Assembly: GCA_937132035.1 (NCBI GenBank)
Contig: CAKZOA010000401.1
Span: 1-38,379 of the forward strand
Reading direction: 5' to 3'
DNA: 38,379 bases
From: an uncultured Desulfobulbaceae bacterium
GTDB taxonomy: Bacteria; Desulfobacterota; Desulfobulbia; Desulfobulbales; Desulfocapsaceae
The notes beneath the pieces are model-generated. The model did not search any database. It was not told where the DNA came from and was given only the letters and a program-made list of their open reading frames with translations. Below, in pieces: positions 12,395 through 27,000 of the stretch (positions within the stretch are counted from its first letter, which is position 1; every line of letters starts with the position of its first letter). Both the position numbers and the translations under genes were made by a program.

Positions 12395-13393
12395 ATGAAT
12401 ATGGCAATTACCCAGAACAACACGCAATCATCCGGCAGGCTCACATTCCCGCTGGTCACGGTCAAGCAGCAGAAAGAGACTACCAGCAGAAACAACCAGG
12501 CCTTTGACAGGTATCTCAAGGAAATTGGCCAGTATGAGCTTCTCTCCCGGGAGGAAATGGAAGAACTGGCCATTCGCGTTATCGAACACAACGACCAGGA
12601 CGCCGCCTATCGCCTCATTTCAGCGAATATGCGGCTGGTGGTCAAGGTGGCCATGGATTTCCAGAAATACTGGATGCAGAATTTTATGGACCTTGTTCAG
12701 GAGGGCAACATCGGCTTGATGAAGGCGGTGAGAAAATTCGATCCCTATAAGGGCGTTAAGTTTTCCTACTATGCAACGTATTGGATTCGCGCCTATATCC
12801 TCAAGTTCCTGATGAATAACTGGCGGCTGGTCAAGCTCGGTACCACCCAGGCCCAGCGCAAGCTGTTCTTCAGTCTCAACAAGGAGAAAAAGAATCTCGA
12901 GGCTCAGGGGTATGCGGCAAAACCGGAACTTTTGGCCGAGCGTCTGGGGGTGAAGAAATCGGAAATAATCGAGATGGGCTGCAGGATGAGCAACGAGGAC
13001 GTTTCGTTGGAAAGTCCAATGGGGCCGGACTCCGATACGGAAAAGAAGGATTTCGTGGCAAGCAGCGGGCCTTCCATTGAGGAAGCGCTCTGTGACGAGG
13101 ATATGAAAAGACGTATCCGCAAGCTTTTGCGTGATCTCAGTGGCAGCCACAATGAAAAGGAAAAGATGATTCTTGAGTGCCGGCTGCTTACCGATGAACC
13201 GCTGACTCTGCAGAAGATATCGGAGAAGTTCGGTATTTCCCGTGAGCGTATTCGCCAGATCGAGAGCAATCTGCTCAAAAAGATGAAAAAACATATCGAA
13301 GAAACCGATCCGGAAATAATGATTTTCGCCGCCGGTCCTGTTCCCAGGCAGAGAGCCATGGAAAGACTCACTGAGGAGGCGGTAGCAGTTTGA
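12395..13393 (+). CDS. rpoH: RNA polymerase heat-shock sigma factor RpoH (sigma-32)
   Basis: NLVQEGNIGLMKAV-like region 2 and YYATYWIRAYILKFLMNNWRLVKLGTTQAQRKLFFSL including the RpoH box; region 4 LTLQKISEKFGISRERIRQIE. Confidence 0.93.
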   Translation: MNMAITQNNTQSSGRLTFPLVTVKQQKETTSRNNQAFDRYLKEIGQYELLSREEMEELAIRVIEHNDQDAAYRLISANMRLVVKVAMDFQKYWMQNFMDLVQEGNIGLMKAVRKFDPYKGVKFSYYATYWIRAYILKFLMNNWRLVKLGTTQAQRKLFFSLNKEKKNLEAQGYAAKPELLAERLGVKKSEIIEMGCRMSNEDVSLESPMGPDSDTEKKDFVASSGPSIEEALCDEDMKRRIRKLLRDLSGSHNEKEKMILECRLLTDEPLTLQKISEKFGISRERIRQIESNLLKKMKKHIEETDPEIMIFAAGPVPRQRAMERLTEEAVAV

Positions 13394-13946: not shown

Positions 13947-14486
13947 ATGGTTTTGGGATCAGAAAATACTATACGGGAGAGCAGAGACTGGGGGCAGGAA
14001 TACCAGAGGGAGCCGGCGGTTATGGAAACTGCGAAAACGATTCTGGTAGTGTATCATTCCCAGGGTGGTACCATGGAGAACCTGGCACGTCGTTTTGTCA
14101 GGGGGGCAGCGCGTGAACAGGGGATATCGATACAGTTGAAAAGGGCCGCCGACGCCCGTCTGGAGGATCTTCTCGGCTGCAGCGCTATAGCCATAGGCTC
14201 TCCCGAATATTTCGGTACCATGGCCGGCCTCATCAAAGATTTTTTTGACCGCACCTATGAAGAGGCCAGGCAACGCACCGTGGGGTTGCCCTACGTCGTG
14301 TTCGTCTGTGGTGGCAACGACGGTCGTGGCGCCCTCATGCAGATCGAGCGGATAGCTTCGGGGTATTCCTGGAAGAAGGCGCTGGAGCATGTACGCATAA
14401 CCGGCAGCCCGGTCGAACAAGATCTGGTTGCCGTCGAGGAGCTGGGCCAGACACTGGCCGCCGGCATCGATTTCGGTATTTTTTGA
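13947..14486 (+). CDS. Flavodoxin family protein
   Basis: KTILVVYHSQGGTMENLARRFVRGA phosphate loop; AIAIGSPEYFGTMAGLIKDFFDRTYE. Alternative start at 14022. Confidence 0.85.
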   Translation: MVLGSENTIRESRDWGQEYQREPAVMETAKTILVVYHSQGGTMENLARRFVRGAAREQGISIQLKRAADARLEDLLGCSAIAIGSPEYFGTMAGLIKDFFDRTYEEARQRTVGLPYVVFVCGGNDGRGALMQIERIASGYSWKKALEHVRITGSPVEQDLVAVEELGQTLAAGIDFGIF

Positions 14487-14535: not shown

Positions 14536-15204
14536 ATGACCTATACGCCAGATTTGAAGGAAATCAGACAATCCTACAGCGAGGTTCTGAAGAACTGGGA
14601 TTCCATAGACGATGAGCTCGATAAATTGGGAATCGGAAGAAAGGACACGCCTTTTGATTCTGTGGTAATGGAAAATATGCTGTGTGCCTGGGAGTATCTT
14701 GATTTCATTATCCGCAAAAAAGATTACGGTCTTTTCTCGGAAAAGGGCGGTCCGGACATGCTGGAGATCAATCACCGGGTCCACTACGGGCTGGACCGGG
14801 AACTGCGGAGCGAGTACCGTAAGGCCATCGATTCCACCACCGAAAAGTATTCGCGGCTGATCGCGCCTCTGAGAAAATATTACCGCAAAAAGATGAAGAA
14901 GCATACTTCGGCCAACAAGGTTGCCGCCGAACTCTATATCGCCATCCTGGGGATGCCGCAGCTCTATATCGAGGGCAACCACAGAAGCGGTTCCATCGTC
15001 GCCAGCTGGGTCAACCTGGTACATAAAAATCCTCCGTTCGTCCTGACGGTGGACAATGCCATCTCCTTTTTTGCACCGGCCCAGGAAATTAAAAAATTCG
15101 ACCAGCGCACCGCCTGGCGGTCCATGACCAAACTGCCGAAGTATAAAAAGGCGTTCAAAGAGTTCTGGAAAGACAATTGCGATATGAGATTTGTCAAAAA
15201 ATGA
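14536..15204 (+). CDS. Fic/Doc (Fido)-like protein with degenerate catalytic motif
   Basis: AAELYIAILGMPQLYIEGNHRSGSIVASWVNLVHKNPPFVLT aligns by eye with the Fic motif HPFx[D/E]GNGRxxR; the catalytic His position is Gln. Confidence 0.6.
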   Translation: MTYTPDLKEIRQSYSEVLKNWDSIDDELDKLGIGRKDTPFDSVVMENMLCAWEYLDFIIRKKDYGLFSEKGGPDMLEINHRVHYGLDRELRSEYRKAIDSTTEKYSRLIAPLRKYYRKKMKKHTSANKVAAELYIAILGMPQLYIEGNHRSGSIVASWVNLVHKNPPFVLTVDNAISFFAPAQEIKKFDQRTAWRSMTKLPKYKKAFKEFWKDNCDMRFVKK

Positions 15205-15313: not shown

Positions 15314-15934
15314 ATGGTTGAGATCATCGCACTCTACGGCAGTCCGAGACGCGAGGGTAACAGCGCCACTCTGCTGGAGCGGGCAGTAGCCGGGGCACGA
15401 CAGCAGGGGGCGGTGGTCGAGGAGGTCTATCTACGTGATCACAAAATCTCGCCCTGCCTGGAAATATACCAGTGTATGAAAAATGGCGAATGCGCCATCC
15501 GCGACGATTTTGCCTCAATACTTGCCAAAATCGAGGCCAGCTCCGGCATTATGCTGGCCTCGCCCATTTTTTTCTACTCTGTCAGCGCCCATACCAAAAT
15601 CTTCATGGATCGCTGCCAGTCGCTGTGGGTGCGCAAATACTGGATAGAGAAGCAGCCCTTCGGCAGGGCGGAGCTGACGCGCAAGGGCATATTCATCTCC
15701 GTCGGCGCCACCGAAGGTAAAAAACTCTTCGACGGCGCTCTGCTCTCCGTCAGATACTTCTTCGATGTCCTCAGCGCCGAACTCTGGAAAACCGTTCTTT
15801 GCAGAGGGGTCGACCGTAAGGGTGAGATCAATTCCCGTCGGGACTACCTCGAGGAGGCCTTTGCCGCCGGCAGGGAGCTGGCCAGGGTCCTGCAGGAACA
15901 GCAAAGCCAGCGGTCCGCGTCCGAGAAGACGTAA
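15314..15934 (+). CDS. NAD(P)H-dependent FMN reductase / flavodoxin-fold protein
   Basis: MVEIIALYGSPRREGNSATLLERAVAGA; ISPCLEIYQCMKNGECAIRDDF; GIMLASPIFFYSVSAHTKIFMDRCQSLW. Confidence 0.9.
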   Translation: MVEIIALYGSPRREGNSATLLERAVAGARQQGAVVEEVYLRDHKISPCLEIYQCMKNGECAIRDDFASILAKIEASSGIMLASPIFFYSVSAHTKIFMDRCQSLWVRKYWIEKQPFGRAELTRKGIFISVGATEGKKLFDGALLSVRYFFDVLSAELWKTVLCRGVDRKGEINSRRDYLEEAFAAGRELARVLQEQQSQRSASEKT

Positions 15935-23743: not shown

Positions 23744-24430
23744 TTATGCAGCCGCCTGAGCCTTGGCCCAGTCGAGGGCGGCGAAGGCATCGCTGCAGTA
23801 GCCGTCGGCGCCGATTTTTTCGGAAAACTGTTTCGAGGTCGGTGCGCCGCCGATGCATATCCTCACACGGTCGCGGATGCCCTCGCCCTTGAGTTTTTCA
23901 ACGACCTCCTCCATGTTGCGCATGGTGGTGGTCAGCAGGGCGGAAAGGCCGAGGTAGGGGGCCTGCTGTTCTTTGACCGTGGCGATAATGGTATCGACGG
24001 AGACGTCGACGCCGAGATCGATGACCTCGTAGCCTGCGCCCTTGAGCATGATGGCGACGATGTTCTTGCCGATGTCGTGCAGATCGCCGGCCACCGTGGC
24101 TATGACGAACTTGCCCTTGGACTCGACGCCGGCCTTGACCAGATGCGGCGTGAGAATGTCCATGCCGGCGCCCACCGCCTCGGCTGCGGCCAGCATATCG
24201 GGGATCAAATACTCTCCTGACTCGAATTTCTCACCGACCACGGCCATGGAGGCGGTGAGACCGTCGATCAATATCTTCTCGGGCTCGACATTCTGTTCCA
24301 AGGCCTCTTCAACCAGTTCGGTGACGGCGGGTTGGCCTTCGAATCCTTCGTCGAATCCCTCATCTTCGGCCTCGACGCGGCCCTGGACGACGTTGATGGC
24401 GATGTTTTCCAAAAGTTCGTTCGTGTTCAT
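23744..24430 (-). CDS. Corrinoid (B12-binding) methyl-carrier protein, MttC/MtbC family
   Basis: VATVAGDLHDIGKNIVAIMLKGAGYEVIDLGVDV carries the DxHxxG cobalamin motif; cap domain N-terminal. Confidence 0.95.
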   Translation of the reverse strand: MNTNELLENIAINVVQGRVEAEDEGFDEGFEGQPAVTELVEEALEQNVEPEKILIDGLTASMAVVGEKFESGEYLIPDMLAAAEAVGAGMDILTPHLVKAGVESKGKFVIATVAGDLHDIGKNIVAIMLKGAGYEVIDLGVDVSVDTIIATVKEQQAPYLGLSALLTTTMRNMEEVVEKLKGEGIRDRVRICIGGAPTSKQFSEKIGADGYCSDAFAALDWAKAQAAA

Positions 24431-24468
24431 GTCTTTCTCCTGATGTCTATGTCCATGTAAAAACTCAA

Positions 24469-24541
24469 TGATTACAGATGAAACTCAGCCTGGCCTCTTG
24501 CAAAGGGTCCCAGGCACGTAGCTCAATTTCATTGGTAATCA
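24469..24541 (-). other. Long intercistronic stem-loop between the mttB-like gene and the corrinoid protein gene
   Basis: TGATTAC-AG-ATGAAA-CTCA-GCCTGG (24469-24493) pairs with CCAGGC-...-TTTCAT-TG-GTAATCA (24510-24541): 7, 6 and 6 bp helices with internal loops. Confidence 0.65.
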
Positions 24542-24546
24542 GCGTA

Positions 24547-26094
24547 TTACCCGGGCGATGTCCTGAGCCGTGGAAGCAGACCGGGGACGCTGTCGTAGAT
24601 CTCGTCGACTATATCATCTTCAAGATGTTTGGCCGGCCGGGCCTCCAGTTCCTGCAATCTGGCATGGGCCTTTTCCAGCACCCGGTCCTGCATATCCTTT
24701 GATTCGAAGCGGTAGGGCTCGGAGACCAGACCGGCGCGCATCGGCTTGCGGGTGTGACGGGTGAAGAGCCGGTGGGTGGTCTGCATGACCTTGCGTTCCA
24801 TGGCCACCGCTTCCTCGGTGGTTTCGCCGTTTATGACGGCGGGGCGCATGCAGTGCTTGGCCATGCCGATCTGTTCGTTGTCCAGCACCGCCTGCAGCGG
24901 CGAGAAGGTGTTGGTCCTATCGAGCAGACCGAAGGCATAGTGGATATACTGGGCGCCGCTGGCGGCCATGTAGAGGTGGGAAAAAAGCTTTTCGATGGCC
25001 GCCTGCATGCCGGGCACCTTGGCGTTGGCGACGCCGGTGCTGGAATAGCAGGGCAGCCCGTAGAACCTGGCCATCTGGGTGCAGTCGACGTTGTACTGGT
25101 TGAACTCGGGGCAGCCGTAGAGGTCGTTGAGATCGTCGAGCCTGGCCCGTACCGGCACCGAGCCGTACATAACCGGGGTTTCCGGTTCGATGAGCTGGGT
25201 GAGGGCGATGCCGGTGAGAATCTCGGCGTTGATCTGGGCCACCATGCCGCTCTCCTGAATGGGCGCCGAAGAGCCGCCCTGCGGCGAAGAGGAGATCACC
25301 AGCGGCAGACCTTTGTCGACGACTGCAAAAACCTTGTCGGCGGTATCATCTACCAGCTGCAGCGGGCTTTTGAAGACGCAGGCGATAAAGGAGATGATGG
25401 GGTTTTCCCGCAACGCCTCGCTGCCGCCGGCGATGATCTCGGCCATCTTCACCACATCGTCCAGGGCTTCGAGGCTGGTGAGGCCGGCCTGCACATGCTT
25501 GGTGATGTTGTTAAGGCTGGCGAAAAATTTATTGACGTCGTGATTGGCCTCGGTGATGTCCTCATCCTGGATATTGACCGGCCGGATGAAGAAATCGAGA
25601 TGCTCCAGCTGCTCGGCCAGCCGCGCCGCCCGGGCCAGCAGTTCGGTGCTGCCGCGTTTTTCGATAAAGCGGGGCAGCAGACGCGGCTCGCCGTCGCCTG
25701 CGGCGGCGACATATTTTTCCATTTCCGTTTCCAGCCAGACATTGGTCTCCGAACCGGTGCCGAAATATACCCGGGGCACGGCGGCGTTGATATCGAGGCG
25801 GTTGCTCCTTTCGCGGGCGCCTAGAACGATATGCGAGGGCGCCCGGGAGAGAGCCTCCATGATCAACTTTTCGGGGATCCGCACCCGCCAGCAGGGCGAG
25901 CTACCGCTCTCTTCTTTGTCCACCGTGGCGCCATGGGCGCCGAAGAGTTCGGCGGCTTTGGCGTTGTAGCACCAGATGCCGGGATCGGCGAGGATCTCCA
26001 TGGAGGCCCGGTGCAGATGGTCGATCTGCTCCCGGTCCAGGCGTTCATAGGGTCTGACGATGTTTCCTTGTCGAAAGCTGTCCATTGTTTGCAT
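24547..26094 (-). CDS. MttB-family (trimethylamine/quaternary amine:corrinoid) methyltransferase, non-pyrrolysine
   Basis: ILADPGIWCYNAKAAELFGAHGATVD N-terminus; uninterrupted 515-aa frame, so no amber codon; adjacent corrinoid protein. Confidence 0.88.
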   Translation of the reverse strand: MQTMDSFRQGNIVRPYERLDREQIDHLHRASMEILADPGIWCYNAKAAELFGAHGATVDKEESGSSPCWRVRIPEKLIMEALSRAPSHIVLGARERSNRLDINAAVPRVYFGTGSETNVWLETEMEKYVAAAGDGEPRLLPRFIEKRGSTELLARAARLAEQLEHLDFFIRPVNIQDEDITEANHDVNKFFASLNNITKHVQAGLTSLEALDDVVKMAEIIAGGSEALRENPIISFIACVFKSPLQLVDDTADKVFAVVDKGLPLVISSSPQGGSSAPIQESGMVAQINAEILTGIALTQLIEPETPVMYGSVPVRARLDDLNDLYGCPEFNQYNVDCTQMARFYGLPCYSSTGVANAKVPGMQAAIEKLFSHLYMAASGAQYIHYAFGLLDRTNTFSPLQAVLDNEQIGMAKHCMRPAVINGETTEEAVAMERKVMQTTHRLFTRHTRKPMRAGLVSEPYRFESKDMQDRVLEKAHARLQELEARPAKHLEDDIVDEIYDSVPGLLPRLRTSPG

Positions 26095-26199
26095 CCTTAT
26101 AGTGTTGTCTGATTGCGTTATCTCATAGGGGCTTGCCGTGAGATGAGCACCTCCAGGGCAATGAGCAAGAAGCTGAGCTGTATCGGTAATCCCATACGG

Positions 26200-27000
26200 T
26201 TATGTTCGTGTCCGCCAGTATTTGGCATATTTGCGGCAATGGCGGTCGCGTCCCAGCACCGCTTCGGCGGTGCGCACGGCACCCATGAGCTTTTCATCGG
26301 CGACGTTCATGATGGCGCCGTCGAGTCCGGCATAGAGCGCCATGTGCAAAAAGGCGGTGTTGAAGATGTGCCGGCGGGGCAGACCGAAACTGACATTGGA
26401 CACTGCCATTACCGTCTTCGCCTGGGGAAATTCGCTCTTCACCGCCTCGATGGTCTTCAGCGTCACTTTCCCCTGGCTGACATCGGTGGAGACCGGCAGC
26501 ACCAGGGGGTCGAAAAAAATCCGGTCAAGACCGATGCCCATTGACGAACAGGCGGAGGCGATGACGGCGCAGGCATTCACCCTTTCGCCGACGGTGGCGG
26601 GGATGCCCTTCTCATCCATGGCCAGGCCCACCAGCGGTGTATCGTACTCTTTGGCCAGCGGCAGTATCCGCTCAAGAGAGGAGGGCGCCCCCTTGGTGGC
26701 GTTGATCAGCGACGGCCGGCCACCCCGCATGCCAAGACCTGCCTGCAGCACCTCCGGGTCGGCGGAGTCGATGCACAGCGGCGTCTCTACAGCCGACTGT
26801 ATCAGTTCCACCGCCCAGCGCATGGACTCTATCTCCTCCTGTTGGCCGCCGCTGCCGGTGCCGACGTTGACGTCGAGGTAGTCGGCCCCGGCCTCGCTCT
26901 GGCTGCGGGCCAGCTCGAGGAGGGCGGCTTCGTCGCGCTTTTCGATTATGGCTTTGACCGAAGGAATGGTGGCGTTGATCTTCTCGGCGATTGTCAGCAT
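26200..27000 (-). CDS. Methyltetrahydrofolate:corrinoid methyltransferase (MtgA/AcsE-like, pterin-binding TIM barrel)
   Basis: MLTIAEKINATIPSVKAIIEKRD; GADYLDVNVGTG; PLCIDSADPEVLQAGL; SLINATKG; MAVSNVSFGLPRR. Confidence 0.93.
   Translation of the reverse strand: MLTIAEKINATIPSVKAIIEKRDEAALLELARSQSEAGADYLDVNVGTGSGGQQEEIESMRWAVELIQSAVETPLCIDSADPEVLQAGLGMRGGRPSLINATKGAPSSLERILPLAKEYDTPLVGLAMDEKGIPATVGERVNACAVIASACSSMGIGLDRIFFDPLVLPVSTDVSQGKVTLKTIEAVKSEFPQAKTVMAVSNVSFGLPRRHIFNTAFLHMALYAGLDGAIMNVADEKLMGAVRTAEAVLGRDRHCRKYAKYWRTRT

Follow-up and report, generated by a model that had tools for sequence, protein, structure and literature searches.

A Gln-type Fido protein family associated with a second, PhoU-less Pst phosphate transporter in Desulfobacterota

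In Fic enzymes the histidine of the core motif acts as the general base and a second arginine serves the gamma-phosphate, and many bacterial Fic/Doc proteins are toxins. PhoU, in turn, is known to connect Pst with PhoR. Of the other elements of the Fic motif, the Asp/Glu holds Mg and the GN-R loop holds the phosphates (PMC4454073, PMC4177925). The family of Fic-like (Fido) proteins considered here, which carries glutamine at the position of the catalytic histidine, is connected by profile-level homology over family residues ~44–185 to the class II FICD-type Fic AMPylases (PF02661; PDB 5jj6, 4u04 and 6i7j). The two have in common the order of helix, Fic loop, Fic helix and a PP.xL..xx..Y[YF] element, but the family differs in its His to Gln and Gly to His replacements, in the missing second Arg, in having no conserved inhibitory Glu, in an unrecognisable docking hairpin and in consisting of one domain of 222 aa.

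Glutamine in place of the catalytic His is also a property of the Fic/Doc clade D2, whose consensus is Qx[FY]x[DE][GV]NKR and whose members are, like those of the present family, single-domain bacterial proteins without known function (Khater and Mohanty, 2015; PMC4454073). Compared via the published consensus only, the two differ at position 8 of the motif, which is Lys in D2 (NKR) and His in the family (NHR in 36 sequences, NNR in one); moreover, no phosphate context is reported for D2 (PMC4454073), unlike for the family. The Doc toxin of phage P1 resembles the family in that position 8 of its motif is basic or polar and a second Arg is absent, but it keeps the catalytic His and pairs with the antitoxin Phd, and the family has neither. 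AvrB shows that a Fido protein can function although the usual motif is lacking (PMC10866546); it is a secreted effector with a different motif, whereas the family keeps E, G, N and R. PhoU shares with the family the placement of its gene 3' of pstSCAB in a phosphate transport operon and, if the proposal made below is correct, the part of a cytoplasmic partner of Pst, but there is no sequence relation between the two (hhalign E 0.45) and PhoU itself is encoded elsewhere in the same genomes.

The window analysed here, a stretch of 38,379 nucleotides corresponding to one (C401) of the 499 contigs of an uncultured Desulfobulbaceae genome (G000), contains one member of this family at 14536–15204 on the plus strand. 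Desulfocapsaceae and Desulfopila/Desulforhopalus are the named taxa most closely related to this genome. The ORF encodes 222 aa and starts with ATG, the first ATG being the start in close homologs too (M-[AP]-Y-R-P). The original prediction had read in it a Fic pattern with QLYIEGNHR substituted for HPFx[D/E]GNGR, and this description holds, as the ORF is real and the motif columns are conserved in 37 homologs. The altered motif spans residues 142–150 (14959–14985, plus strand), and in the register given by per-column conservation and hhalign Q142 takes the place of the catalytic His, E146 that of the Mg-binding Asp/Glu and H149 that of the Gly/Lys of GN[G/K]R. A second invariant block, PPFVL...NA...FxP (residues 166–181; 15031–15078, plus strand), corresponds in the alignment and by hhalign to the PPVxLPVExRxxYY stretch that follows the Fic helix. 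On the same strand the gene is flanked, as the original prediction had stated and as Pfam supports, by genes for a flavodoxin-like protein (13947–14486) and an NADPH-dependent FMN reductase-like protein (15314–15934), at distances of 49 and 109 bp, respectively. Elsewhere in the window, 12395–13393 (plus strand) encodes a sigma-32 (RpoH)-type sigma factor that passed the subfamily model and did not reach the equivalog cut-off, while 23744–27000 (minus strand) holds genes judged by eye to encode a corrinoid protein, an MttB-like trimethylamine methyltransferase and a pterin-binding methyltransferase, a cluster for which methylamine or betaine demethylation is possible.

The homology of the family to Fic/Fido proteins is well supported by profile comparisons. 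As a single query the window protein has no match in Pfam, NCBIfam or PDB; PF02661 matches 7 of 13 members singly, with 6e-5 as the best value. When the family profile is searched against PDB with hmmsearch, FICD structures are matched with an E of 2e-5 for a profile of 13 sequences and of 4e-5 to 1e-4 for one of 37 sequences, and the Fic loop is correctly placed in the match. Comparison of the family with canonical Fic proteins of the same phylum by hhalign gives 95.3% with an E of 2.1e-8 across 134 columns, with Q142 aligned to the catalytic His; as controls, the reversed alignment gives an E of 0.076, ten column shuffles 0.17–0.86 and a PhoU alignment 0.45. The assignment to the Fido group made in the original prediction is borne out at the level of sequence homology. 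HMMER places a two-residue gap instead of one near the motif, with which the exact partner of the His may be residue 140 or 142; residue 140 is variable, and neither residue is His in any member. AlphaFold2, run on six sequences only, reached a pLDDT of 40. A CpcN match in the PDB searches was dismissed as five sub-significant repeats in a phycobilisome linker, none passing singly, and phrog_11900 consists of ordinary Fic proteins.

A search of 258 genomes of the order gave 30 matches, made up of 26 family members and four ordinary Fic proteins. Further Gln-type members occur in other Desulfobacterota and one is found on a gammaproteobacterial plasmid of Candidatus Thiodictyon syntrophicum; apart from this plasmid, no relatives of the Fido protein were found in IMG/VR, a phage collection and PLSDB. 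In the resulting alignment of 37 homologs covering the motif, drawn from related genomes and the one plasmid, P141-Q142-L143-x-x-E146-G147-N148 is identical in 37 of 37, including the Gln at the catalytic His position; R150 is present in 38 of 38 homologs, and position 149 is His in 36 of 37 and Asn in one (L041). Other columns without variation are PPFVL (166–170), N174, A175, F179, P181 and K186. Pairwise dN/dS bounds range from 0.04 to 0.29, where for most pairs, which are saturated at synonymous sites, the bound is the ratio of raw proportions. Given the invariance of the motif columns and these bounds, the Gln and His of the motif are, as judged from the aligned sequences, a fixed and selected state under purifying selection, and the QLYIEGNHR motif is by the same measure not due to chance. 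The concern raised with the original prediction, that this could be a single decayed copy, is answered by this conservation. Likewise, the window gene is not a worn copy of a canonical Fic gene of its own genome, since that genome encodes four canonical Fic proteins, of which three or more retain HPFxDGNGR intact, and the Gln/His state is fixed in the family.

Several other elements of canonical Fic proteins are missing. The AMPylating-Fic motif HxFx[D/E]GNGR with its catalytic His does not occur in the family, and position 153, which would be the second Arg of GNGRxxR, is occupied in every member by Ala, Ser, Cys or Val. Neither the class I–III inhibitory helix [S/T]xxxE[G/N] nor a conserved inhibitory Glu was found among the members, and they show no recognisable Fic target-docking hairpin (YRxxxVxIxGxxHxPP). 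The window sequence SVVMEN (residues 42–47) was considered as an inhibitory helix and rejected, as position 42 is mostly Asp and position 46 variable across the family, and as the alignment places the helix after the canonical SNAIEGN site. In the genome of Desulforhopalus sp. IMCC35007 (G115) the Fido gene is divided between two contig ends (L056:124–576 and L057:8204–8422); the break falls at motif codons 150–151 with ~120 bp of other sequence beyond each break, which probably reflects a repeat or insertion element within the motif. Another genome (G170) has two copies of the gene (L051 and L052) at unlinked places.

The gene neighbourhoods of the homologs lead away from the redox and flavin connection that the original prediction had proposed. 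Neither flavoprotein is found near any other homolog examined, including that of genome G001 from the same genus, and the two adjoin the Fido gene in the window's genome only; the recurrent partner is a Pst system without PhoU. Clustering of the flanking ORFs leaves Pst genes as the sole widely shared neighbours, and mapping with Pst/Pho seeds gives 18 loci in which the Fido gene comes immediately downstream of a co-oriented pstS-pstC-pstA-pstB(-pstS) set. These comprise 16 genomes of the order (three families), one genome from another family of the phylum (G666) and the Thiodictyon plasmid, and they span several Desulfobacterota families and two phyla. The gap between the pst operon and the Fido gene is 42–398 bp, and in L043, L044, L046, L047, L084, L086, L088 and L018 a second substrate-binding protein gene, pstS2, lies between pstB and the Fido gene. 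No phoU is present in the linked operon. Because the same genomes carry a classical phoR-phoB / phoU-pstC-pstA-pstS-pstB locus elsewhere, the linked operon represents a second Pst without phoU, and its PstB is ~47% identical to the classical PstB. The Fido genes and pstB do not overlap, so that co-transcription is putative only, and a scan for E. coli-type Pho boxes gave no consistent signal, with none even before the classical pho/pst locus.

The co-occurrence of the two components is pronounced. The second PstB is present in 19 of the 258 genomes of the order (74–100% identity to the L042 copy), and the Fido gene is found in 18 of these 19 vs. 8 of the 239 genomes without it (Fisher p 1.3e-20, a value that overstates independence, as the 258 genomes are related). 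The Fido gene is adjacent to the second Pst in 16 of the 19; among the other three, the contig of G529 is cut at both ends, that of G108 ends inside pstS2 before the site, and G126 has its Fido gene on another small contig, not within 1.3 kb of pstB. On the tree the pst-linked state takes 4 changes vs. 12.3 with shuffled labels, and the linked loci lie in one supported group of 21, in which two of the three unlinked members are at contig ends. Fido and PstB distances correlate (Mantel r 0.74, 0 of 5000 permutations), i.e., the two proteins diverge together. The tie of the family to phosphate uptake is far more secure than either the regulatory or the enzymatic reading of its function discussed below.

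The window protein itself groups with full support in a long-branched clade that comprises five complete sequences, and the genomes of this clade are without the second PstB. In the window's own genome the classical Pst/Pho locus (L102) is present and the second PstB absent, and the window copy, its motif intact, is located away from pst genes. As this copy lies away from pst and pho genes, its functional inference rests on homology rather than on its own neighbours. Two relatives from a single genus, placed inside the window clade or adjacent to it (L054 and L056), have the Fido gene after phoB-phoR; in the window and the rest of the clade the gene has unrelated surroundings. In the clade of family f54 the Fido gene is mostly away from pst or pho genes. 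Two loci of that family (L048 and L049) show a KefB-like cation/proton antiporter gene followed after ~12 bp by the Fido gene, and the antiporter was rejected as a general partner since it does not precede the Fido gene generally. Some 4 kb upstream of the Fido gene, L049/L050 carry pst-like genes together with a PIN/PhoH-like gene.

The reading that we prefer, at a probability of roughly 0.45, is that the Gln-type Fido protein may serve as an accessory or regulator of high-affinity phosphate uptake. In the linked loci its gene is placed where PhoU usually stands, which suggests a role in the control of phosphate uptake. The protein is probably not AMPylating, since the catalytic base and the second Arg are lost. 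Its E-G-N-H-R pocket would still accommodate a ligand carrying phosphate, be it ATP/ADP, Pi or a different phosphorylated metabolite, and the invariance of the motif together with the low dN/dS bounds argues for such a kept ligand site. Occupancy by the ligand would then be passed to the PstAB part of the transporter, which is the role of PhoU for the classical Pst; in the window clade, where a second Pst is lacking, the protein would work on the classical Pst/Pho system that remains. A regulator that binds its ligand but transfers no AMP is favoured by the loss of the base and second Arg alongside invariant metal and phosphate elements. The more specific proposal that the Gln/His-site Fido protein is a dedicated signalling subunit of the PhoU-less Pst, taking PhoU's part either as a phosphate-ligand sensor or as a PstB-modifying enzyme, is possible but less likely than not.

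From adjacency to pst alone, a regulator and an enzyme with Pst as its target cannot be distinguished, and the invariance of PPFVL, N174 and K186 is also expected of an active enzyme. It is possible, with odds clearly below those of a regulator, that the family consists of active Fido enzymes which use another cosubstrate mode and modify a Pst or Pho component by transfer of phosphate, a sugar or some other group. Across two phyla the motif does not vary, the change of Gly to Lys at position 8 in Doc inverts ATP and makes a kinase (PMC4177925), and the authors of the Gln clade D2 argue that D2 need not be dead (PMC4454073); by analogy with AvrB, another transfer reaction may remain compatible with the family motif. 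However, no member has the general base or the second Arg of RxxR, and the natural homolog L041, with Asn at position 8, makes a catalytic role of H149 doubtful. The loss of the base, along with the unrecognisable docking hairpin, would suit a non-enzymatic structural partner whose Fic-like loop holds no ligand, but we consider this unlikely, as it leaves the total invariance of E146, G147, N148 and R150 unexplained.

Two further explanations concern the genomic setting. Weak Doc-like PHROG matches in 3 of 13 members would agree with a toxin of a Doc/Fic-type toxin-antitoxin pair that settled beside pst by chance, yet Pst genes are the only conserved neighbours of 70 aa or more, most loci leave too little room upstream for an antitoxin gene, co-inheritance with PstB extends over long distances and the catalytic His is missing, all of which make a toxin very improbable. 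Hardly any weight is left for a redox/flavin-linked Fido protein working with the two adjoining flavoproteins, which the common strand and the short gaps in the window would favour, given that these flank no other homolog, even within the genus.

The NHR motif and the phosphate link of Gln-type Fic proteins appear to be new, the His-to-Gln state itself being known from D2; a literature search, with subscription journals mostly outside its scope, returned no paper linking Fic-like proteins with pst operons. Gln-type Fic/Doc proteins have so far been a sequence clade without function or context, and the tie to pst gives them a testable biological setting. If the regulatory reading is true, a Fido protein would be added to the control of phosphate uptake, and the range of Fido proteins would widen from modifying toxins and effectors to the regulation of a transporter.
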